Of a stretch of DNA of 64,000 nt, positions 1 through 58,018 are shown in pieces; the first letter of the stretch is position 1, and each line of letters begins with the position of its first letter. The notes under the pieces were generated by a model. It was given only the letters and a program-made list of their open reading frames with translations, was not told the origin of the DNA and did no database searches. The position numbers and the translations under genes were made by a program. Origin of the DNA: Deroplatys truncata (taxonomy: Eukaryota; Arthropoda; Insecta; Mantodea; Mantidae); assembly GCA_030765065.1 (NCBI GenBank), contig CM060983.1, positions 230,473,528-230,537,527 of the forward strand. The letters run 5' to 3'.

Positions 1-1173
1 TCTAATGTCTTAACTCCTGTACTATGTTAGCTGTAGTCGGGCCAGAAAACACAAACTCATACTCTAATGTCTTAACTCCTGTACTATGTTAGCTGTAATT
101 GGGGCAGAAAACACAAACTCATACTCTAATGTCTTAACTCCTGTACTATGTTAGCTGTAATTGGTACAGAAACCACAAACTCATACTCTAATGTCTTAAC
201 TCCTGTACTATGTTAGCTGTAATTGGTACAGAAAACACAAACTCATACTCTAATGTCTTATCTCCTGTACTATGTTAGCTGTAATTGGTACAGAAACCAC
301 AAACTCATAGTGTAATGTCTTAACTCCTGTACTATGTTAGCTGTAGTCGGGCCAGAAAATACAAACTCATACTCTAATGTCTTAACTCCTGTACTATGTT
401 AGCTGTAGTCGGGCCAGAAAACACAAACTCATACTCTAATGTCTTAACTCCTGTACTATGTTAGCTGTAGTCGGGCCAGAAAACACAAACTCATACTCTA
501 ATGTCTTAACTCCTGTACTATGTTAGCTGTAATTGGTACAGAAACCACAAACTCATACTCTAATGTCTTAACTCCTGTACTATGTTAGCTGTAATTGGGG
601 CAGAAAACACAAACTCATACTGTAATGTCTTAACTCCTGTACTATGTTAGCTGTAGTCGGGCCAGAAAACACAAACTCATACTCTAATGTCTTAACTCCT
701 GTACTATGTTAGCTGTAATTGGTGCAGAAAACACAAACTCATACTCTAATGTCTTAACTCCGGTACTATGTTAGCTGTAGTCGGGCCAGAAAACACAAAC
801 TCATACTCTATTTCTTAACTCCTGTACTATGTTAGCTGTAATTGGGGCAGAAAACACAAACTCATGCTGTAATGTCTTAACTCCTGTACTATGTTAGCTG
901 TAGTCGGGCCAGAAAACACAAACTCATACTCTAATGTCTTAACTCCTGGACTACGTTAGCTGTAGTCGGGCCAGAAAACACAAACTCATAGTCTAATGTC
1001 TTAACTCCTGTACTATGTTAGCTGTAGTCGGGCCAGAAAACACAAACTCATACTCTAATGTCTTAACTCCTGTACTATGTTAGCTGTAATTGGGGCAGAA
1101 AAAAAACACATACTCTAATCTCTTAACTCCTGTACTATGTTAGCTGTAATTGGGGCAGAAAACACAAACTCAT
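1..1173 (+). repeat. Satellite family A block 1 (62-bp monomer, 19 copies)
   Basis: Head-to-tail 62-bp monomers opening with actctaatgtcttaactcc and closing with cagaaaacacaaactcat. The first copy lacks its first two bases at the window edge, so the array continues upstream. Subtypes are mixed: agtcgggccag, aattggggcag and aattggtacagaaaccac. One copy near 810 is 1 bp short (tctatttctt). The block ends with a 60-bp A-rich copy (1052-1111) and a copy reading ctaatctctt (1112-1173), the usual signature before a B block. Confidence 0.97.
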
Positions 1174-2493
1174 ACTCTCACTAGTTTGTTAAATCATGAC
1201 CTATGTCTGCTACAGTTGGGGCAGAAAACACAAACTCATACTCTCACTAGTTTGTTAAATCACGACCTATGCCTGCTGCAGTTGGGGCAGAAAACACAAA
1301 CTCATACTGTCGCTAGTTTGTTAAATCATAACCTATGCCTGCTGCAATTAGAGCAGAAAACACACACTCATACTCTCACTAGTTTGTTAAATCATGACCT
1401 ATGCCTGCTGCAATTAGAGCAGAAAACACACACTCATACTCTCACTAGTTTGTTAAATCATGACCTATGCCTGCTGCAGTTGGGGCAGAAAACACAAACT
1501 CATACACTCACTAGTTTGTTAAATCATAACCTATGCCTGCTGCAGTTGGGGCAGAAAGCACACACTCATACTCTCACTAGTTTGTTAAATCATGACCTAT
1601 GCCTGCTGCAGTTGGGGCAGAAAACACAAACTCATACTCTCACTAGTTTGTTAAATCATAACCTATGCCTGCTGCAGTTGGGGCGGAAAACACAAACTCA
1701 TATTCTCACTAGTTTGTTAAATCATGACCTATGCCTGCTGCAGTTGGGGCAGAAAACATAAACTCATACTCTCACTGGTTTGTTAAATCATGACCTATGT
1801 CTGCTGCAGTTGGGGCAGAAAACACAAACTCATACTCTCACTAGTTTGTTAAATCATGACCTATGCCTGCTGCAGTTGGGGCAGAAAACACACACTCATA
1901 CTCTCACTAGTTTGTTAAATCATAACCTATGCCTGCTGCAGTTGGGGCAGAAAACACAAACTCATACTCTCACTAGTTTGTTAAATCATAACCTATGCCT
2001 GCTGCAGTTGGGGCAGAAAACACACACTGATACTCTCACTAGTTTGTTAAATCATGACCTATGCCTGCTGCAATTAGAGCAGAAAACACACACTCATACT
2101 CTCACTAGTTTGTTAAATCATGACCTATGCCTGCTGCAATTAGGGCAGAAAACACACACTCATACTCTCACTAGTTTGTTAAATCATGACCTATTCCTGC
2201 TGCAATTAGAGCAGAAAACACACACTCATACTCTCACTAGTTCATTAAATCATGACCTATGTCTGCTGCAATTACAGCAGAAAACACACTTTCATACTCC
2301 TACTAGTTCATTAAATCATGACTTATGCCTGCTGCAATTAGAGCAGAAAACACAAACTCATACTCTCACTAGTTTGTTAAATCATGACCTATGCCTGCTG
2401 CAGTTGGGGCAGAAAACACAAACTCATACTCTCACTAGTTTGTTAAATCATGACCTATGCCTGCTGCAGTTGGGGCAGAAAACACACACTCAT
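1174..2493 (+). repeat. Satellite family B block 1 (66-bp monomer, 20 copies)
   Basis: Exactly 20 copies of a 66-bp monomer opening with actctcactagtttgtt. The 3' half is like family A. Sub-variants include attagagcag with cacact (from about 1345), gtcgctag near 1307 and ttcattaaat near 2242 and 2310. The forward frame stays open because 66 is 22 codons, but TAA at 1759-1761 (aaaacataaac) breaks it. The block exits through the J1/J2 hybrid pair. Confidence 0.97.
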
Positions 2494-2627
2494 ACTCTCA
2501 CCAGTGTGTTAACTCCAGTACTATGTTAGCTGCAGTTGGAGCACAAAATGACAAAACTCATACTCCCACAAATGTGTAAACTCCTGTACCATGTTAGCTG
2601 TAGTCAGGGCAGAAAACACAAACTCAT
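2494..2627 (+). repeat. Hybrid junction monomers J1 (68 bp) + J2 (66 bp)
   Basis: J1 (2494-2561) starts B-like (actctcaccagtgtgtta) and continues A-like (ctatgttagctg), with a private gcacaaaatgacaaaac end. J2 (2562-2627) reads actcccacaaatgtgtaaac and then turns A-like. They keep the four extra bases typical of B but carry the A middle section, so they are intermediates between the families. This is the first of eight copies. Confidence 0.95.
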
Positions 2628-5600
2628 ACTCTAATGTCTTAACTCCTGGATTATGTTAGCTGTAATTGGGGTAGAAAACACAAACTCATACTCTAATGTC
2701 TTAACTCCTGGACTACGTTCACTGTAATTGGGGCAGAAAACACAAACTCATACTCTAATGTCTTAACTCCTGTACTATGTTACCTGTAATTGGGGCAGAA
2801 AAAACAAACTCATACTCTAATGTCTTAACTCCTGTACTATGTTAGCTGTAATTGGTGCAGAAAACATAAACTCATACTCTAATGTCTTAACTCCTGTACT
2901 ATGTTAGCTGTAGTCGGGCCAGAAAACACAAATTCATACTCTAATGTCTTAACTCCTGTACTATGTTAGCTGTAATTGGGGCAGAAAACACAAACTCATA
3001 CTCTAATGTCTTAACTCCTGTACTATGTTAGCTGTAATTGGGGCAGAAAACACAAACTCATACTCTAATGTCTTAACTCCTGTACTATGTTAGCTGTAAT
3101 TGGTACAGAAACCACAAATTCATACTCTAGTGTCTTAACTCCTGTACTATGTTAGCTGTAATTGGTACAGAAACCACAAACTCATACTCTAATGTCTTAA
3201 CTCCTGTACTATGTTAGCTGTAATTGGTACAGAAACCACAAACTCATACTGTAATGTCTTAACTCCTGTACTATGTTAGCTGTAATTGGGGCAGAAAACA
3301 CAAACTCATACTCTAATGTCTTAACTCCTGTACTATGTTAGCTGTAATTGGGGCAGAAAACACAAACTCATACTCTAATGTCTTAACTCCTGTACTATGT
3401 TAGCTGTAATTGGTGCAGAAAACACAAACTCATACTCTAATGTCTTAACTCCTGTACTATGTTAGCTGTAATTGGGGCAGAAAAAACAAACTCATACTCT
3501 AATGTCTTAACTCCTGTACTATGTTAGCTGTAATTGGTGCAGAAAACATAAACTCATACTCTAATGTCTTAACTCCTGTACTATGTTAGCTGTAGTCGGG
3601 CCAGAAAACACAAATTCATACTCTAATGTCTTAACTCCTGTACTATGTTAGCTGTAATTGGGGCAGAAAACACAAACTCATACTCTAATGTCTTAACTCC
3701 TGTACTATGTTAGCTGTAATTGGGGCAGAAAACACAAACTCATACTCTAATGTCTTAACTCCTGTACTAACTTAGCTGTAGTCGGGCCAGAAAACACAAA
3801 CTCATACTGTAATGTCTTAACTCCTGTACTATGTTAGCTGTAGTCGGGCCAGAAAACACAAACTCATACTCTAATGTCTTAACTCCTGTACTATGTTAGC
3901 TGTAATTGGGCAGAAAACACAAACTCATACACTAATGTCTTAATTCCTGTACTATGTTAGCTGTAATTGGGGCAGAAAACACAAACTCATACTCTAATGT
4001 CTTAACTCCTGTACTATGTTAGCTGTAATTGGGGCAGAAAACACAAACTCATACTCTAATGTCTTAACTCCTGTACTATGTTAGCTGTAGTCGGGCCAGA
4101 AAACACAAACTCATACTCAAATGTCTTAACTCCTGTACTATGTTAGCTGTAATTGGGGCAGAAAACACAAACTCGTACTCTAATGTCTTAACTCCTGTAC
4201 TATGTTAGCTGTAATTGGGGCAGAAAACACAAACTCATACTCTAATGTCTTAACTCTTGTACTATGTTAGCTGTAGTCGTGCCAGAAAACACAAACTCAT
4301 ACTCTAATGTCTTAACTCCTGTACTACGTTAGCTGTAGTCGGGCCAGAAAACACAAACTCATACTCTAATGTCTTAACTCCTGTACTATGTTAGCTGTAG
4401 TCGGGCCAGAAAACACAAACTCATACTCTAATGTCTTAACTCCTGGACTACGTTAGCTGTAGTCGGGCCAGAAAACACAAACTCATACTCTAATGTCTTA
4501 ACTCCTGTACTATGTTAGCTGTAGTCGGGCCAGAAAACACAAACTCATACTCTAATGTCTTAACTCCTGTACTATGTTAGCTGTAATTGGGGCAGAAAAC
4601 ACAAACTCATACTCTAATGTCTTAACTCCTGTACTATGTTAGCTGTAATTGGTACAGAAACCACAAACTCATACTCTAATGTCTTAACTCCTGTACTATG
4701 TTAGCTGTAATTGGTACAGAAAACACAAACTCATACTCTAATGTCTTATCTCCTGTACTATGTTAGCTGTAATTGGTACAGAAACCACAAACTCATAGTG
4801 TAATGTCTTAACTCCTGTACTATGTTAGCTGTAGTCGGGCCAGAAAATACAAACTCATACTCTAATGTCTTAACTCCTGTACTATGTTAGCTGTAGTCGG
4901 GCCAGAAAACACAAACTCATACTCTAATGTCTTAACTCCTGTACTATGTTAGCTGTAGTCGGGCCAGAAAACACAAACTCATACTCTAATGTCTTAACTC
5001 CTGTACTATGTTAGCTGTAATTGGTACAGAAACCACAAACTCATACTCTAATGTCTTAACTCCTGTACTATGTTAGCTGTAATTGGGGCAGAAAACACAA
5101 ACTCATACTGTAATGTCTTAACTCCTGTACTATGTTAGCTGTAGTCGGGCCAGAAAACACAAACTCATACTCTAATGTCTTAACTCCTGTACTATGTTAG
5201 CTGTAATTGGTGCAGAAAACACAAACTCATACTCTAATGTCTTAACTCCGGTACTATGTTAGCTGTAGTCGGGCCAGAAAACACAAACTCATACTCTATT
5301 TCTTAACTCCTGTACTATGTTAGCTGTAATTGGGGCAGAAAACACAAACTCATGCTGTAATGTCTTAACTCCTGTACTATGTTAGCTGTAGTCGGGCCAG
5401 AAAACACAAACTCATACTCTAATGTCTTAACTCCTGGACTACGTTAGCTGTAGTCGGGCCAGAAAACACAAACTCATAGTCTAATGTCTTAACTCCTGTA
5501 CTATGTTAGCTGTAGTCGGGCCAGAAAACACAAACTCATACTCTAATGTCTTAACTCCTGTACTATGTTAGCTGTAATTGGGGCAGAAAAAAAACACATA

Positions 5601-5661
5601 CTCTAATCTCTTAACTCCTGTACTATGTTAGCTGTAATTGGGGCAGAAAACACAAACTCAT
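2628..5661 (+). repeat. Satellite family A block 2 (49 copies)
   Basis: 49 monomers; length 3,034 fits 49 x 62 minus 4, with 1-bp deletions near 3905 (aattgggcag) and 5296 and a 60-bp A-rich copy at 5540-5599. It begins with a copy carrying ctggattatgtt and ggggtag, followed by one with ggactacgttcac. Runs of the aattggtacagaaaccac subtype lie at about 3100-3240 and 4640-4800. From 4489 on it repeats window position 1 onward. Confidence 0.97.
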
Positions 5662-6981
5662 ACTCTCACTAGTTTGTTAAATCATGACCTATGTCTGCTA
5701 CAGTTGGGGCAGAAAACACAAACTCATACTCTCACTAGTTTGTTAAATCACGACCTATGCCTGCTGCAGTTGGGGCAGAAAACACAAACTCATACTGTCG
5801 CTAGTTTGTTAAATCATAACCTATGCCTGCTGCAATTAGAGCAGAAAACACACACTCATACTCTCACTAGTTTGTTAAATCATGACCTATGCCTGCTGCA
5901 ATTAGAGCAGAAAACACACACTCATACTCTCACTAGTTTGTTAAATCATGACCTATGCCTGCTGCAGTTGGGGCAGAAAACACAAACTCATACACTCACT
6001 AGTTTGTTAAATCATAACCTATGCCTGCTGCAGTTGGGGCAGAAAGCACACACTCATACTCTCACTAGTTTGTTAAATCATGACCTATGCCTGCTGCAGT
6101 TGGGGCAGAAAACACAAACTCATACTCTCACTAGTTTGTTAAATCATAACCTATGCCTGCTGCAGTTGGGGCGGAAAACACAAACTCATATTCTCACTAG
6201 TTTGTTAAATCATGACCTATGCCTGCTGCAGTTGGGGCAGAAAACATAAACTCATACTCTCACTGGTTTGTTAAATCATGACCTATGTCTGCTGCAGTTG
6301 GGGCAGAAAACACAAACTCATACTCTCACTAGTTTGTTAAATCATGACCTATGCCTGCTGCAGTTGGGGCAGAAAACACACACTCATACTCTCACTAGTT
6401 TGTTAAATCATAACCTATGCCTGCTGCAGTTGGGGCAGAAAACACAAACTCATACTCTCACTAGTTTGTTAAATCATAACCTATGCCTGCTGCAGTTGGG
6501 GCAGAAAACACACACTGATACTCTCACTAGTTTGTTAAATCATGACCTATGCCTGCTGCAATTAGAGCAGAAAACACACACTCATACTCTCACTAGTTTG
6601 TTAAATCATGACCTATGCCTGCTGCAATTAGGGCAGAAAACACACACTCATACTCTCACTAGTTTGTTAAATCATGACCTATTCCTGCTGCAATTAGAGC
6701 AGAAAACACACACTCATACTCTCACTAGTTCATTAAATCATGACCTATGTCTGCTGCAATTACAGCAGAAAACACACTTTCATACTCCTACTAGTTCATT
6801 AAATCATGACTTATGCCTGCTGCAATTAGAGCAGAAAACACAAACTCATACTCTCACTAGTTTGTTAAATCATGACCTATGCCTGCTGCAGTTGGGGCAG
6901 AAAACACAAACTCATACTCTCACTAGTTTGTTAAATCATGACCTATGCCTGCTGCAGTTGGGGCAGAAAACACACACTCAT
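5662..6981 (+). repeat. Satellite family B block 2 (20 copies)
   Basis: Second copy of the 20-monomer block at an offset of exactly 4,488 bp; I saw no difference from the first. The same in-frame TAA (6247-6249) and the same ttcattaaat copies near the end are present. Confidence 0.97.
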
Positions 6982-7115
6982 ACTCTCACCAGTGTGTTAA
7001 CTCCAGTACTATGTTAGCTGCAGTTGGAGCACAAAATGACAAAACTCATACTCCCACAAATGTGTAAACTCCTGTACCATGTTAGCTGTAGTCAGGGCAG
7101 AAAACACAAACTCAT
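6982..7115 (+). repeat. Hybrid junction monomers J1 + J2, copy 2
   Basis: Same 68 + 66 bp pair as at 2494, offset 4,488 bp. J1 is 6982-7049 and J2 is 7050-7115. Confidence 0.95.
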
Positions 7116-10100
7116 ACTCTAATGTCTTAACTCCTGGATTATGTTAGCTGTAATTGGGGTAGAAAACACAAACTCATACTCTAATGTCTTAACTCCTGGA
7201 CTACGTTCACTGTAATTGGGGCAGAAAACACAAACTCATACTCTAATGTCTTAACTCCTGTACTATGTTACCTGTAATTGGGGCAGAAAAAACAAACTCA
7301 TACTCTAATGTCTTAACTCCTGTACTATGTTAGCTGTAATTGGTGCAGAAAACATAAACTCATACTCTAATGTCTTAACTCCTGTACTATGTTAGCTGTA
7401 GTCGGGCCAGAAAACACAAATTCATACTCTAATGTCTTAACTCCTGTACTATGTTAGCTGTAATTGGGGCAGAAAACACAAACTCATACTCTAATGTCTT
7501 AACTCCTGTACTATGTTAGCTGTAATTGGGGCAGAAAACACAAACTCATACTCTAATGTCTTAACTCCTGTACTATGTTAGCTGTAATTGGTACAGAAAC
7601 CACAAATTCATACTCTAGTGTCTTAACTCCTGTACTATGTTAGCTGTAATTGGTACAGAAACCACAAACTCATACTCTAATGTCTTAACTCCTGTACTAT
7701 GTTAGCTGTAATTGGTACAGAAACCACAAACTCATACTGTAATGTCTTAACTCCTGTACTATGTTAGCTGTAATTGGGGCAGAAAACACAAACTCATACT
7801 CTAATGTCTTAACTCCTGTACTATGTTAGCTGTAATTGGGGCAGAAAACACAAACTCATACTCTAATGTCTTAACTCCTGTACTATGTTAGCTGTAATTG
7901 GTGCAGAAAACACAAACTCATACTCTAATGTCTTAACTCCTGTACTATGTTAGCTGTAATTGGGGCAGAAAAAACAAACTCATACTCTAATGTCTTAACT
8001 CCTGTACTATGTTAGCTGTAATTGGTGCAGAAAACATAAACTCATACTCTAATGTCTTAACTCCTGTACTATGTTAGCTGTAGTCGGGCCAGAAAACACA
8101 AATTCATACTCTAATGTCTTAACTCCTGTACTATGTTAGCTGTAATTGGGGCAGAAAACACAAACTCATACTCTAATGTCTTAACTCCTGTACTATGTTA
8201 GCTGTAATTGGGGCAGAAAACACAAACTCATACTCTAATGTCTTAACTCCTGTACTAACTTAGCTGTAGTCGGGCCAGAAAACACAAACTCATACTGTAA
8301 TGTCTTAACTCCTGTACTATGTTAGCTGTAGTCGGGCCAGAAAACACAAACTCATACTCTAATGTCTTAACTCCTGTACTATGTTAGCTGTAATTGGGCA
8401 GAAAACACAAACTCATACACTAATGTCTTAATTCCTGTACTATGTTAGCTGTAATTGGGGCAGAAAACACAAACTCATACTCTAATGTCTTAACTCCTGT
8501 ACTATGTTAGCTGTAATTGGGGCAGAAAACACAAACTCATACTCTAATGTCTTAACTCCTGTACTATGTTAGCTGTAGTCGGGCCAGAAAACACAAACTC
8601 ATACTCAAATGTCTTAACTCCTGTACTATGTTAGCTGTAATTGGGGCAGAAAACACAAACTCGTACTCTAATGTCTTAACTCCTGTACTATGTTAGCTGT
8701 AATTGGGGCAGAAAACACAAACTCATACTCTAATGTCTTAACTCTTGTACTATGTTAGCTGTAGTCGTGCCAGAAAACACAAACTCATACTCTAATGTCT
8801 TAACTCCTGTACTACGTTAGCTGTAGTCGGGCCAGAAAACACAAACTCATACTCTAATGTCTTAACTCCTGTACTATGTTAGCTGTAGTCGGGCCAGAAA
8901 ACACAAACTCATACTCTAATGTCTTAACTCCTGGACTACGTTAGCTGTAGTCGGGCCAGAAAACACAAACTCATACTCTAATGTCTTAACTCCTGTACTA
9001 TGTTAGCTGTAGTCGGGCCAGAAAACACAAACTCATACTCTAATGTCTTAACTCCTGTACTATGTTAGCTGTAATTGGGGCAGAAAACACAAACTCATAC
9101 TCTAATGTCTTAACTCCTGTACTATGTTAGCTGTAATTGGTACAGAAACCACAAACTCATACTCTAATGTCTTAACTCCTGTACTATGTTAGCTGTAATT
9201 GGTACAGAAAACACAAACTCATACTCTAATGTCTTATCTCCTGTACTATGTTAGCTGTAATTGGTACAGAAACCACAAACTCATAGTGTAATGTCTTAAC
9301 TCCTGTACTATGTTAGCTGTAGTCGGGCCAGAAAATACAAACTCATACTCTAATGTCTTAACTCCTGTACTATGTTAGCTGTAGTCGGGCCAGAAAACAC
9401 AAACTCATACTCTAATGTCTTAACTCCTGTACTATGTTAGCTGTAGTCGGGCCAGAAAACACAAACTCATACTCTAATGTCTTAACTCCTGTACTATGTT
9501 AGCTGTAATTGGTACAGAAACCACAAACTCATACTCTAATGTCTTAACTCCTGTACTATGTTAGCTGTAATTGGGGCAGAAAACACAAACTCATACTGTA
9601 ATGTCTTAACTCCTGTACTATGTTAGCTGTAGTCGGGCCAGAAAACACAAACTCATACTCTAATGTCTTAACTCCTGTACTATGTTAGCTGTAATTGGTG
9701 CAGAAAACACAAACTCATACTCTAATGTCTTAACTCCGGTACTATGTTAGCTGTAGTCGGGCCAGAAAACACAAACTCATACTCTATTTCTTAACTCCTG
9801 TACTATGTTAGCTGTAATTGGGGCAGAAAACACAAACTCATGCTGTAATGTCTTAACTCCTGTACTATGTTAGCTGTAGTCGGGCCAGAAAACACAAACT
9901 CATACTCTAATGTCTTAACTCCTGGACTACGTTAGCTGTAGTCGGGCCAGAAAACACAAACTCATAGTCTAATGTCTTAACTCCTGTACTATGTTAGCTG
10001 TAGTCGGGCCAGAAAACACAAACTCATACTCTAATGTCTTAACTCCTGTACTATGTTAGCTGTAATTGGGGCAGAAAAAAAACACATACTCTAATCTCTT

Positions 10101-10149: not shown

Positions 10150-11469
10150 ACTCTCACTAGTTTGTTAAATCATGACCTATGTCTGCTACAGTTGGGGCAG
10201 AAAACACAAACTCATACTCTCACTAGTTTGTTAAATCACGACCTATGCCTGCTGCAGTTGGGGCAGAAAACACAAACTCATACTGTCGCTAGTTTGTTAA
10301 ATCATAACCTATGCCTGCTGCAATTAGAGCAGAAAACACACACTCATACTCTCACTAGTTTGTTAAATCATGACCTATGCCTGCTGCAATTAGAGCAGAA
10401 AACACACACTCATACTCTCACTAGTTTGTTAAATCATGACCTATGCCTGCTGCAGTTGGGGCAGAAAACACAAACTCATACACTCACTAGTTTGTTAAAT
10501 CATAACCTATGCCTGCTGCAGTTGGGGCAGAAAGCACACACTCATACTCTCACTAGTTTGTTAAATCATGACCTATGCCTGCTGCAGTTGGGGCAGAAAA
10601 CACAAACTCATACTCTCACTAGTTTGTTAAATCATAACCTATGCCTGCTGCAGTTGGGGCGGAAAACACAAACTCATATTCTCACTAGTTTGTTAAATCA
10701 TGACCTATGCCTGCTGCAGTTGGGGCAGAAAACATAAACTCATACTCTCACTGGTTTGTTAAATCATGACCTATGTCTGCTGCAGTTGGGGCAGAAAACA
10801 CAAACTCATACTCTCACTAGTTTGTTAAATCATGACCTATGCCTGCTGCAGTTGGGGCAGAAAACACACACTCATACTCTCACTAGTTTGTTAAATCATA
10901 ACCTATGCCTGCTGCAGTTGGGGCAGAAAACACAAACTCATACTCTCACTAGTTTGTTAAATCATAACCTATGCCTGCTGCAGTTGGGGCAGAAAACACA
11001 CACTGATACTCTCACTAGTTTGTTAAATCATGACCTATGCCTGCTGCAATTAGAGCAGAAAACACACACTCATACTCTCACTAGTTTGTTAAATCATGAC
11101 CTATGCCTGCTGCAATTAGGGCAGAAAACACACACTCATACTCTCACTAGTTTGTTAAATCATGACCTATTCCTGCTGCAATTAGAGCAGAAAACACACA
11201 CTCATACTCTCACTAGTTCATTAAATCATGACCTATGTCTGCTGCAATTACAGCAGAAAACACACTTTCATACTCCTACTAGTTCATTAAATCATGACTT
11301 ATGCCTGCTGCAATTAGAGCAGAAAACACAAACTCATACTCTCACTAGTTTGTTAAATCATGACCTATGCCTGCTGCAGTTGGGGCAGAAAACACAAACT
11401 CATACTCTCACTAGTTTGTTAAATCATGACCTATGCCTGCTGCAGTTGGGGCAGAAAACACACACTCAT
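10150..11469 (+). repeat. Satellite family B block 3 (20 copies)
   Basis: Third copy of the 20-monomer block. TAA at 10735-10737 again interrupts the open frame. It is also the template for the block at 17673. Confidence 0.97.
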
Positions 11470-11603
11470 ACTCTCACCAGTGTGTTAACTCCAGTACTAT
11501 GTTAGCTGCAGTTGGAGCACAAAATGACAAAACTCATACTCCCACAAATGTGTAAACTCCTGTACCATGTTAGCTGTAGTCAGGGCAGAAAACACAAACT
11601 CAT
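11470..11603 (+). repeat. Hybrid junction monomers J1 + J2, copy 3
   Basis: Same pair as at 2494. About 130 bp downstream (11,736) the sequence leaves the 4,488-bp pattern. Confidence 0.95.
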
Positions 11604-17672: not shown

Positions 17673-18992
17673 ACTCTCACTAGTTTGTTAAATCATGACC
17701 TATGTCTGCTACAGTTGGGGCAGAAAACACAAACTCATACTCTCACTAGTTTGTTAAATCACGACCTATGCCTGCTGCAGTTGGGGCAGAAAACACAAAC
17801 TCATACTGTCGCTAGTTTGTTAAATCATAACCTATGCCTGCTGCAATTAGAGCAGAAAACACACACTCATACTCTCACTAGTTTGTTAAATCATGACCTA
17901 TGCCTGCTGCAATTAGAGCAGAAAACACACACTCATACTCTCACTAGTTTGTTAAATCATGACCTATGCCTGCTGCAGTTGGGGCAGAAAACACAAACTC
18001 ATACACTCACTAGTTTGTTAAATCATAACCTATGCCTGCTGCAGTTGGGGCAGAAAGCACACACTCATACTCTCACTAGTTTGTTAAATCATGACCTATG
18101 CCTGCTGCAGTTGGGGCAGAAAACACAAACTCATACTCTCACTAGTTTGTTAAATCATAACCTATGCCTCCTGCAGTTGGGGCGGAAAACACAAACTCAT
18201 ATTCTCACTAGTTTGTTAAATCATGACCTATGCCTGCTGCAGTTGGGGCAGAAAACATAAACTCATACTCTCACTGGTTTGTTAAATCATGACCTATGTC
18301 TGCTGCAGTTGGGGCAGAAAACACAAACTCATACTCTCACTAGTTTGTTAAATCATGACCTATGCCTGCTGCAGTTGGGCCAGAAAACACACACTCATAC
18401 TCTCACTAGTTTGTTAAATCATAACCTATGCCTGCTGCAGTTGGGGCAGAAAACACAAACTCATACTCTCACTAGTTTGTTAAATCATAACCTATGCCTG
18501 CTGCAGTTGGGGCAGAAAACACACACTGATACTCTCACTAGTTTGTTAAATCATGACCTATGCCTGCTGCAATTAGAGCAGAAAACACACACTCATACTC
18601 TCACTAGTTTGTTAAATCATGACCTATGCCTGCTGCAATTAGGGCAGAAAACACACACTCATACTCTCACTAGTTTGTTAAATCATGACCTATTCCTGCT
18701 GCAATTAGAGCAGAAAACACACACTCATACTCTCACTAGTTCATTAAATCATGACCTATGTCTGCTGCAATTACAGCAGAAAACACACTTTCATACTCCT
18801 ACTAGTTCATTAAATCATGACTTATGCCTGCTGCAATTAGAGCAGAAAACACAAACTCATACTCTCACTAGTTTGTTAAATCATGACCTATGCCTGCTGC
18901 AGTTGGGGCAGAAAACACAAACTCATACTCTCACTAGTTTGTTAAATCATGACCTATGCCTGCTGCAGTTGGGGCAGAAAACACACACTCAT
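17673..18992 (+). repeat. Satellite family B block 5 (20 copies)
   Basis: Copy of the 10150 block at an offset of 7,523 bp. I saw two substitutions, gcctcctgcag near 18170 and gttgggccag near 18379. TAA at 18258-18260 is kept. Confidence 0.97.
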
Positions 18993-19126
18993 ACTCTCAC
19001 CAGTGTGTTAACTCCAGTACTATGTTAGCTGCAGTTGGAGCACAAAATGACAAAACTCATACTCCCACAAATGTGTAAACTCCTGTACCATGTTAGCTGT
19101 AGTCAGGGCAGAAAACACAAACTCAT
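18993..19126 (+). repeat. Hybrid junction monomers J1 + J2, copy 4
   Basis: Same pair, offset 7,523 bp from the copy at 11470. Confidence 0.95.
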
Positions 19127-38462: not shown

Positions 38463-38508
38463 TCATGACCTATGCCTGCTGCAGTTGGGGCAGAAAACAC
38501 ACACTCAT
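35473..38508 (+). repeat. Satellite family B block 9 (46 copies)
   Basis: 46 monomers. It copies the 31745 block, minus three consecutive monomers (198 bp, near 36100), including the ttcaatcatg copy. The offset changes from 3,728 to 3,530 bp there. TAG landmark at 35851-35853. The two blocks part at 34,933/38,463: this one continues to a normal aaatcatg copy and J1/J2. Confidence 0.97.
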
Positions 38509-38642
38509 ACTCTCACCAGTGTGTTAACTCCAGTACTATGTTAGCTGCAGTTGGAGCACAAAATGACAAAACTCATACTCCCACAAATGTGTAAACTCCT
38601 GTACCATGTTAGCTGTAGTGAGGGCAGAAAACACAAACTCAT
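38509..38642 (+). repeat. Hybrid junction monomers J1 + J2, copy 5
   Basis: Same pair, with gtagtgaggg in J2 where the first four copies have gtagtcaggg. The change is shared with the copy at 45128. Confidence 0.95.
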
Positions 38643-44500: not shown

Positions 44501-45127
44501 CTGCTGCAATTAGGGCAGAAAACACACACTCATACTCTCACTAGTTTGTTAAATCATGACCTATGCCTGCTGCAATTAGAGCAGAAAACACACACTCATA
44601 CTCTCACTAGTTTGTTAAATCATGACCTATGGCAGCTGCAATTAGAGCAGAAAACACACACTCATACTCTCACTAGTTTGATAAATCATGACCTATGCCT
44701 GCTGCAATTAGGGCAGAAAACACACACTCATACTCTCACTAGTTTGTTAAATCATGACCTATGCCTGCTGCAATTAGGTCAGAAAACACACACTCATACT
44801 CTCATTAGTTTGTTAAATCATGACCTATTCCTGCTGCAATTAGAGCAGAAAACACACACTCATACTCTCACTAGTTCATTAAATCATGACCTATGTCTGC
44901 AGCAATTAGAGCAGAAAACACACTTTCATACTCTTACTAGTTCATTAAATCATGACTTATGCCTGCTGCAATTAGAGCAGAAAACACAAACTCATACTCT
45001 CACTAGTTTGTTAAAGCATGACCTATGCCTGCTGCAGTTGGGGCAGAAAACACAAACTCATACTCTCACTAGTTTGTTAAATCATGACCTATGCCTGCTG
45101 CAGTTGGGGCAGAAAACACACACTCAT
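41564..45127 (+). repeat. Satellite family B block 11 (54 copies)
   Basis: 54 monomers, exactly 3,564 bp. TAG at 42074-42076 (landmark) and a private TAG at 43517-43519 (ctgctatag) cut the frame. Private bases include aaacaaaaactc near 43201, caatcagagcag near 44243 and attaggtcag near 44775. It is related to block 8 but carries J1/J2 at its end. Confidence 0.97.
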
Positions 45128-45261
45128 ACTCTCACCAGTGTGTTAACTCCAGTACTATAGTAGCTGCAGTTGGAGCACAAAATGACAAAACTCATACTCC
45201 CACAAATGTGTAAACTCCTGTACCATGTTAGCTGTAGTGAGGGCAGAAAACACAAACTCAT
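45128..45261 (+). repeat. Hybrid junction monomers J1 + J2, copy 6
   Basis: Same pair with actatagtagctg in J1 (others actatgttagctg) and gtagtgaggg in J2. Confidence 0.95.
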
Positions 45262-51400: not shown

Positions 51401-52350
51401 AGTTGGGGCAGAAAACACACATTCATACTCTTACTATTTTGTTAAATCATAACCTATGCCTGCTACAGTTGGGGCAGAAAACACACACTCATACTCTTAC
51501 TAGTTTGTTAAATCATGACCTATGCCTGCTGCAATTAGAGCAGAAAACACACATTCATACTCTCACTAGTTTGTTAAATCATGACTTATGCCTGCTGCAA
51601 TTAGGGCAGAAAACACACACTCATACTCTCACTAGTTCATTAAATCATGACCTATGCCTGCTGCAATTAGAGCAGAAAACACACACTCATACTCTCACTA
51701 GTTCATTAAATCATGACCTATGCCTGCTGCAATTAGAGCAGAAAACACACATTCATACTCTCACTAGTTTGTTAAATCATGACCTATGCCTGCTGCAATT
51801 AGGGCAGAAAACACACACTCATACTCTCACTAGTTTGTTAAATCATGACCTATGCCTGCTGCAATTAGAGCAGAAAACACACACTCATACTCTCACTAGT
51901 TTGTTAAATCATGACCTATGGCAGCTGCAATTAGAGCAGAAAACACACACTCATACTCTCACTAGTTCATTAAATCATGACCTATGCCTGCTGCAATTAG
52001 AGCAGAAAACACACATTCATACTCTCACTAGTTTGTTAAATCATGACCTATGCCTGCTGCAGTTAGGGCAGAAAACACACACTCATACTCTCACTAGTTC
52101 ATTAAATCATGACCTATGTCTGCAGCAATTAGAGCAGAAAACACACTTTCATACTCTTACTAGTTCATTAAATCATGACTTATGCCTGCTGCAATTAGAG
52201 CAGAAAACACAAACTCATACTCTCACTAGTTTGTTAAAGCATGACCTATGCCTGCTGCAGTTGGGGCAGAAAACACAAACTCATACTCTCACTAGTTTGT
52301 TAAATCATGACCTATGCCTGCTGCAGTTGGGGCAGAAAACACACACTCAT
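48457..52350 (+). repeat. Satellite family B block 13 (59 copies)
   Basis: 59 monomers, exactly 3,894 bp. After the TAG landmark (48967-48969) the frame stays open for 1,119 codons into J1, the longest in the window. Private ctgcagatgggg near 48563 and ctgcatatgggg near 49947. A 264-bp (four-monomer) internal duplication sits at 50,663-51,190. Confidence 0.97.
50663..51190. repeat. Internal 264-bp (four-monomer) duplication in B block 13
   Basis: tatggctgctg lies at 50663 and 50927, each followed by the same four sub-variants. The single-copy form is seen in block 8 (near 33424). Confidence 0.85.
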
Positions 52351-52484
52351 ACTCTCACCAGTGTGTTAACTCCAGTACTATGTTAGCTGCAGTTGGAGCA
52401 CAAAATGACAAAACTCATACTCCCACAAATGTGTAAACTCCTGTACCATGTTAGCTGTAGTCAGGGCAGAAAACACAAACTCAT
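52351..52484 (+). repeat. Hybrid junction monomers J1 + J2, copy 7
   Basis: Same pair, with gtagtcaggg in J2 as in copies 1-4. The A copy that normally follows (ctggattatgtt) is absent; the next starts with ggactacgttcac. Confidence 0.95.
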
Positions 52485-56600: not shown

Positions 56601-57884
56601 CTGCAGTTGGGGCAGAAAACACAAACTCATACTCTCACTAGTTTGTTAAATCATAACCTATGCCTGCTGCAATTAGAGCAGAAAACACAAACTCATACTC
56701 TCACTAGTTTGTTAAATCATGACCTATGCCTGCTGCAGTTGGGGCAGAAAACACAAACTCATACTGTCGCTAGTTTGTTAAATCATAACCTATGCCTGCT
56801 GCAATTAGAGCAGAAAACACACACTCATACTCTCACTCGTTTGTTAAATCACGACCTATGCCTGCTACAGTTGGGGCAGAAAACACACACTCATACTCTC
56901 ACTAGTTCATTAAATCACGAACTATGCCTGCTACAGTTGGGGCAGAAAACACACATTCATACTCTTACTAGTTTGTTAAATCATAACCTATGCCTGCTAC
57001 AGTTGGGGCAGAAAACACACACTCATACTCTTACTAGTTTGTTAAATCATGACCTATGCCTGCTGCAATTAGAGCAGAAAACACACATTCATACTCTCAC
57101 TAGTTTGTTAAATCATGACTTATGCCTGCTGCAATTAGGGCAGAAAACACACACTCATACTCTCACTAGTTCATTAAATCATGACCTATGCCTGCTGCAA
57201 TTAGAGCAGAAAACACACACTCATACTCTCACTAGTTCATTAAATCATGACCTATGCCTGCTGCAATTAGAGCAGAAAACACACATTCATACTCTCACTA
57301 GTTTGTTAAATCATGACCTATGCCTGCTGCAATTAGGGCAGAAAACACACACTCATACTCTCACTAGTTTGTTAAATCATGACCTATGCCTGCTGCAATT
57401 AGAGCAGAAAACACACACTCATACTCTCACTAGTTTGTTAAATCATGACCTATGGCAGCTGCAATTAGAGCAGAAAACACACACTCATACTCTCACTAGT
57501 TCATTAAATCATGACCTATGCCTGCTGCAATTAGAGCAGAAAACACACATTCATACTCTCACTAGTTTGTTAAATCATGACCTATGCCTGCTGCAATTAG
57601 GGCAGAAAACACACACTCATACTCTCACTAGTTCATTAAATCATGACCTATGTCTGCAGCAATTAGAGCAGAAAACACACTTTCATACTCTTACTAGTTC
57701 ATTAAATCATGACTTATGCCTGCTGCAATTAGAGCAGAAAACACAAACTCATACTCTCACTAGTTTGTTAAAGCATGACCTATGCCTGCTGCAGTTGGGG
57801 CAGAAAACACAAACTCATACTCTCACTAGTTTGTTAAATCATGACCTATGCCTGCTGCAGTTGGGGCAGAAAACACACACTCAT
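53662..57884 (+). repeat. Satellite family B block 14 (64 copies)
   Basis: 64 monomers minus 1 bp, the longest B block. The deletion (gaaaaccaaac near 53981) and a gttggaaaagaaaac copy near 54034 recur in block 15. The TAG landmark at 54633-54635 is unusually far in. After it the block matches 49,027-52,350 minus two monomers, so a block-12/15-type start appears fused to a block-13-type end. A 264-bp internal duplication lies at 56,197-56,724. Confidence 0.97.
56197..56724. repeat. Internal 264-bp (four-monomer) duplication in B block 14
   Basis: Same duplication as at 50663 (tatggctgctg at 56197 and 56461), so it existed before the larger segment was copied. Confidence 0.85.
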
Positions 57885-58018
57885 ACTCTCACCAGTGTGT
57901 TAACTCCAGTACTATGTTAGCTGCAGTTGGAGCACAAAATGACAAAACTCATACTCCCACAAATGTGTAAACTCCTGTACCATGTTAGCTGTAGTCAGGG
58001 CAGAAAACACAAACTCAT
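57885..58018 (+). repeat. Hybrid junction monomers J1 + J2, copy 8
   Basis: Same pair with gtagtcaggg in J2. As at 52351, the ctggattatgtt copy after it is missing. Confidence 0.95.

Follow-up and report, generated by a model that had tools for sequence, protein, structure and literature searches.

Paired border monomers in a Deroplatys truncata satellite array: a probable remnant of an older, flanking satellite family

Introduction

Two published accounts of human alpha satellite (PMC2729386, PMC11062924) describe older, decayed parent layers lying beside a young homogenised array. That arrays lose homogeneity towards their ends is a familiar notion: monomers at ends and junctions may evade homogenisation and retain or accumulate changes of their own (PMC5139131). 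Work on Chenopodium satellites (PMC6429384) derives repeats and higher-order units from a short ancestral monomer. Age-layered satellites are already known, and the present locus is a tidy new example of them.

The locus resembles human alpha satellite in that young repeats lie beside an older and divergent parent array, whose monomers serve to polarise the young families. Unlike in alpha satellite, the older layer is seen here on the right side only (16 kb was read on the left), the unit measures 62-66 bp and the locus lies 1.2-1.5 Mb from the contig end. The two odd monomers considered below, J1 and J2, sit at a border like the monomers discussed in PMC5139131, but their border is internal, lies between two related families and has been multiplied with its block. 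Whereas the Chenopodium ancestor was inferred from several species (PMC6429384), the older array here adjoins the derived ones.

Recombinant-looking monomers in a homogenised array can be survivors of a parent family, and a flanking decayed array is the right control for apparent hybrids of this kind. One locus here holds the likely parent family C, the derived families A and B, the stump J1 and the border monomers J2 and 230590724, and this co-occurrence makes the order of expansion testable in sister species. A literature search by sequence motif and unit length returned, judged by titles and the openings of abstracts, no paper on this repeat, and an exact 24-base pattern gave 0 matches in GTDB genome contigs and 0 in IMG/VR.

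Results and Discussion

A single array with a recurrent monomer pair

The window (C9:230473528-230537527, the whole 64-kb stretch analysed, in a genome of 4.29 Gb) is a single satellite array. Excision at a conserved 11-base anchor yielded 995 monomers, 222 of them distinct, which fall into family A (432, mostly 62 bp), family B (547, mostly 66 bp), J1 (8, 68 bp) and J2 (8, 66 bp); the A and B consensus sequences are 15 edits apart. J1 and J2 are invariably paired, B preceding and A following them, and the order B-J1-J2-A occurs eight times in the window and 13 times in the enlarged locus described below. The preliminary description had placed these monomers once per block and always at a B-to-A border, and all 8 window pairs and all 13 pairs of the enlarged locus agree with it.

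All window copies lie on the plus strand. The first J1 (2487..2554) and J2 (2555..2620) stand between a B block of 20 monomers of 66 bp (1167..2486) and an A block of 49 monomers, mostly of 62 bp (2621..5654). Monomer cutting placed the further window copies at 6975..7042 (J1) and 7043..7108 (J2), 11463..11530 and 11531..11596, 18986..19053 and 19054..19119, 38502..38569 and 38570..38635, 45121..45188 and 45189..45254, 52344..52411 and 52412..52477, and 57878..57945 and 57946..58011. The fifth and sixth J2 copies have one change in common, and the sixth J1 copy has two changes. The earlier statement that the J monomers are not amplified holds in that each stands as a single monomer, but the pair has been copied 13 times along with its block.

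Within the enlarged locus, 12 of 13 J1 copies and 11 of 13 J2 copies are identical. Such identity could be due to retention by function, for example if the pair bound a protein or set the phase of the higher-order unit, a reading that we regard as highly improbable: the pair is missing at 9 of the 22 B-to-A borders of the enlarged locus, and the B monomer immediately left of J1, with 0 differences among its eight window copies, is equally uniform, so that recent copying of the block, rather than selection, would account for the identity.

Window positions 1-4488 and 4489-8976 are identical, which makes the array a higher-order repeat with a unit of 4,488 bp, and positions 1-7000 are 100% identical to the stretch 4,488 bases further on, reflecting either very recent copying or an effect of the assembly. 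A wrongly duplicated assembly might show just such identity, and the junctions could then have been made by assembly error; the 13 J pairs, however, lie in differing surroundings and show small differences among themselves, which leaves this explanation scarcely credible.

Both monomers stand well apart from their neighbours. Measured against all A and B monomers of the window, J1 comes no closer than 12 differences and J2 no closer than 7, whereas each of the 218 unique A and B monomers of the window lies 1 to 3 differences from its nearest neighbour, so the oddity of the J monomers is not chance. Even with up to five breakpoints allowed between observed A and B monomers, 4 differences remain for J1 and 3 for J2. 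Isolated J-like copies elsewhere in the genome, for which the preliminary description had proposed a search, did not appear: a 27-base pattern across the J1 tail and J2 start, sought with up to 2 mismatches in the 4.29-Gb genome, matched at 13 places, all within the locus (reversed control, 0).

The pair is present at 8 of the 15 B-to-A borders of the window and missing at the other 7. The window has 23 A/B borders that lack the pair, 16 of them A-to-B and 7 B-to-A. No hybrid monomer was seen at any of them, the monomers on either side being plain B and plain A, and by eye these borders fall into four types (two B-to-A and two A-to-B), the remainder being copies. That they are clean indicates that exchanges fall in a segment common to A and B.

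An older family flanks the array

We fetched and cut 200 kb around the window. On the left B continues to about 230449400, where the array ends, and family C was not found in the 16 kb read on that side. Left of the array there is a 15-bp minisatellite, TATCATTTACAATAT (L009 4-850, C9:230433531-230434377), seen also as a 30-bp period (L010 2743-3097). On the right, from 230561836, 24 kb past the window, A/B blocks alternate with and then yield to a 65-bp satellite, C, in which the TRF match is mostly 79-89%, against 92-95% in A/B stretches. A homogenised 64-bp C subfamily (C9:230627528-230647527, L022 and L023) with a TRF match of 96% is a further young expansion within the old array. A C dimer query, scored over the best candidates, gave at least 728 matches; the minority of these that were listed all lay at C9 230.56-230.78 Mb, some of them within 230647528-230737527, a 90-kb stretch of the C region outside the cut monomers, and C may occur at other sites as well. 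Family D, of 66 bp, begins near 230778000-230779000 (L027 638-10000, C9 from about 230778165); it is the most distant relative seen and served as outgroup, the label being assigned by position from 230779000 on.

The enlarged locus comprises 3,712 cut monomers, 1,653 of them unique (A 808, B 1,123, J1 13, J2 13, C 1,641, D 114). Counted per 10 kb, the fraction of monomers with an identical copy reaches 0.76-0.99 in A/B bins; most C-rich bins give 0.16-0.57, two of mixed content 0.68-0.69 and the 64-bp C subarray 0.81-0.85. The locus is age-layered, with an older, less homogenised parent array beside a young one. At the right end of the array two complete blocks read C-B(24 or 40)-J1-J2-A-C and a third reads B-J1-J2-A-C. 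Separate growth of A and B within a C array, with J1 and the border monomer J2 remaining between them, would be expected to produce this order.

For comparison of the families, an alignment was made of 1,645 sequence-label pairs with lengths of 58-70 bp, 1,086 of them unique C. The labelling rule misfiled as C ten B variants within B blocks (single C's between B's). These were removed from the C rows for the profile and breakpoint test (973 of 982 C rows kept) and for the re-sampled trees; they were retained as C in the polarity counts, the motif look-up, the HMM comparison, the main tree, the A/B-mosaic fit and the 12-character comparison.

Polarity of the characters that separate A from B

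The preliminary description had A arise by loss of four bases, and this is borne out by the flanking families: of the unique rows kept, 979 of 982 in C and 71 of 71 in D have the 4-bp stretch, which by reference to these two outgroups is ancestral, its absence in A being derived. The 4 bp and the J states at columns 18, 20, 25, 28, 31, 39 and 40 are those most often found in C and D. At columns 18, 25, 28, 31, 39 and 40 it is B that is derived while J1 and J2 retain the older state, and at column 20 it is A that is derived, both J monomers again retaining the older state. Seven B-specific states are, on this polarity, derived.

J1 matches the C consensus at 10 of the 12 A/B-diagnostic characters, and so does J2. 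Both have A at column 32, which is the family A state and occurs in 1.7% of C; J1 has C at column 45, the B state, found in 3.9% of C, and J2 has A at column 16, as in family A. Over the same 12 characters, states that are derived relative to C and D and tie a J monomer to B number one in J1 (column 45) and none in J2. Given this polarity, the 'A-type' and 'B-type' patchwork of the J monomers is mostly older sequence. Of the earlier image of living fossils linking A and B, the fossil is apt for J1 and half apt for J2, and the link is not.

The same characters bear on whether J1 and J2 are A/B recombinants produced by unequal crossing-over at the B-to-A border, which was the other origin offered in the preliminary description. 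Their confinement to B-to-A borders and their mixture of A and B states are what such exchange would leave. Over the 12 characters, though, J1 needs 4 label switches and J2 3, and numbers of switches no higher than these arise by random ordering in 138 of 495 arrangements for J1 and 30 of 66 for J2. The best single A/B breakpoint reaches -34.0 for J1, against -22.2 for C, and -35.7 for J2, against -28.7 for a C-to-A switch; the absence of hybrid monomers at the J-less borders of the window also argues against it. Neither monomer shows the single clean A/B breakpoint without private sites by which a simple mosaic was to be recognised. Taken together, the profile, character and tree tests that use C and D disfavour recombination between A and B, which we consider very unlikely for J1 and J2 alike; J1 fits C without a breakpoint, and J2 may instead be a recombinant of C and A. 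In a tree without an outgroup both J monomers had branched from the stem that joins B to A, in keeping with the preliminary description. That they are A/B intermediates was suggested by this in-window tree alone and became disfavoured once the outgroups C and D were included.

Affinity of J1 to family C

J1 is better read as a surviving monomer of the older family C. Its HMM scores are 65.7 bits for C, 43.8 for A and 40.2 for B, and its profile lnL is -22.2 for C, -46.3 for A and -54.9 for B, with a best one-breakpoint gain of 0.8 (the HMM, mosaic and profile tests used the first 60 columns only, as tails align badly). Among 973 unique C monomers, 65% fit C worse than J1 does, although C is so varied that many sequences fit it. 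All 5 D-rooted trees, from which the 4-bp columns were omitted, placed J1 within the C rows. Support in the main tree was modest, at 80/74 for J1 with monomer 230561836 and 92/80 for a 50-row C set holding J1, monomers of only about 65 bp giving low branch support; in all four trees with re-sampled C rows the three smallest sets around J1 contained C rows only. Monomer 230561836, the first C monomer to the right of an A block, is the nearest non-J monomer to J1 among the 1,653 unique monomers, at 8 differences. A direct parent copy of J1 was not found, every C monomer cut being at least 8 differences away.

The one rival that J1 leaves room for on raw fit is a mosaic of A and B with two free breakpoints, B-A-B, which fits J1 as well as C does with none (-22.2 and -22.1 before penalty). 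With raw fits equal, the decision for J1 falls to C on grounds of economy and on the trees. The ancestral-monomer origin put forward in the preliminary description thus stands insofar as J1 appears to be an old copy, while HMM, trees and profile point to the flanking family C as the better parent.

The composition of J1 was given correctly as regards the four extra bases, followed by ctatgttagctg and then gcacaaaatgac, but its 3' end (gcagttggag) is not A-type. Part of the supposedly private J1 tail, GAGCACAAAA, is shared with 124 of 1,557 C monomers and with 3 B monomers; another part, AAAATGAC, is absent from all A, B, C and D monomers looked at and to that extent private. The look-up covered 1,557 of the 1,641 C-labelled monomers, the rest presumably having odd lengths or a letter lost with dropped columns.

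Composition of J2

J2 had been called similar to J1. It does have the A-type 3' end ascribed to it, but it is a monomer of a different kind: we read it as a C-to-A border monomer, C-like to about column 23 and A-like thereafter. HMM scores are nearly level for A (52.5 bits) and C (51.9), with B at 31.5, and J2 grouped with A in 5 of 5 D-rooted trees (4-bp columns omitted). A single C-to-A switch at column 23 gains 7.6 lnL, whereas none of the 1,457 other unique monomers of families A, B and C gains more than 5.3. As positive control for this test we used a 61-bp monomer at an A-to-C border (C9:230590724-230590784), evidently an A/C border hybrid, with an A-type 5' part (4-bp gap) and a C-type 3' part, which gains 5.7. 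One clean C/A breakpoint describes J2, except that column 16 is A-like, though the motif CACAAAT occurs in 4 C monomers.

Two origins may be weighed for this composition. With little more than even confidence, we favour a C x A recombinant at an old C-to-A border over an A precursor. That J2 is instead a genuine precursor of A, in which the 4 bp were never lost, has, in our estimate, somewhat under an even chance: J2 retains the 4 bp and the G at column 20, agrees with A at columns 16 and 32, adjoins the A block and, in one of the four re-sampled trees, branches as sister to the 8 A rows taken together. The main tree and three of the four re-sampled ones, however, place J2 inside A, its 3' part near the AGTC subtype, yet all A subtypes are without the 4 bp. 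The motif CTCCCACAA at the 5' end of J2 recurs in 3 C monomers (look-alikes of one place in three blocks) and in no A or B monomer. The size of the gain at column 23 and the existence of the border hybrid at 230590724 likewise tell against a precursor.

Proposed history of the locus

We consider it probable that J1-J2 is a two-monomer stump of the older C satellite, left between two younger local expansions. Starting from an ancestral C array, a C-derived variant with the 4-bp loss would have expanded into an A block, and another C variant with about seven B-specific changes may have expanded into a B block on its left, leaving between them J1, a single C monomer, and J2 at the border. Unequal exchange would then have multiplied the B-J1-J2-A unit to 13 blocks or more, some copies of which may have lost J1-J2 through A-B exchange within their common segment. 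The block order C-B-J1-J2-A-C, the fit of J1 to C, the ancestral character of most J states and the single C-to-A switch in J2 are observations, whereas which expansion came first, copying through unequal crossing-over and the lack of selection are what we infer.

A bolder proposal is that J1-J2 marks the exact ancestral site at which the separate expansions of A (rightward) and B (leftward) began, no more than two monomers apart. We consider this less likely than not; if it were true, the origin of a higher-order array with two families would be readable base by base.

Minor features of families A and B

A fixed pair of divergent B monomers, which depart from the B consensus by 8 to 11 differences, is found at window positions 2223-2354 and at 12 similar places (13 occurrences in the window), often close to the right end of a B block. 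The second monomer of the pair begins CTTTCATACTC, and the pair is possibly another old variant carried along. Additionally, stretches of A show a weak internal period of 31 bp (window 3190-3286 and 13 other rows, TRF match 55-59%), as would be seen if the A monomer had arisen as a dimer long ago.
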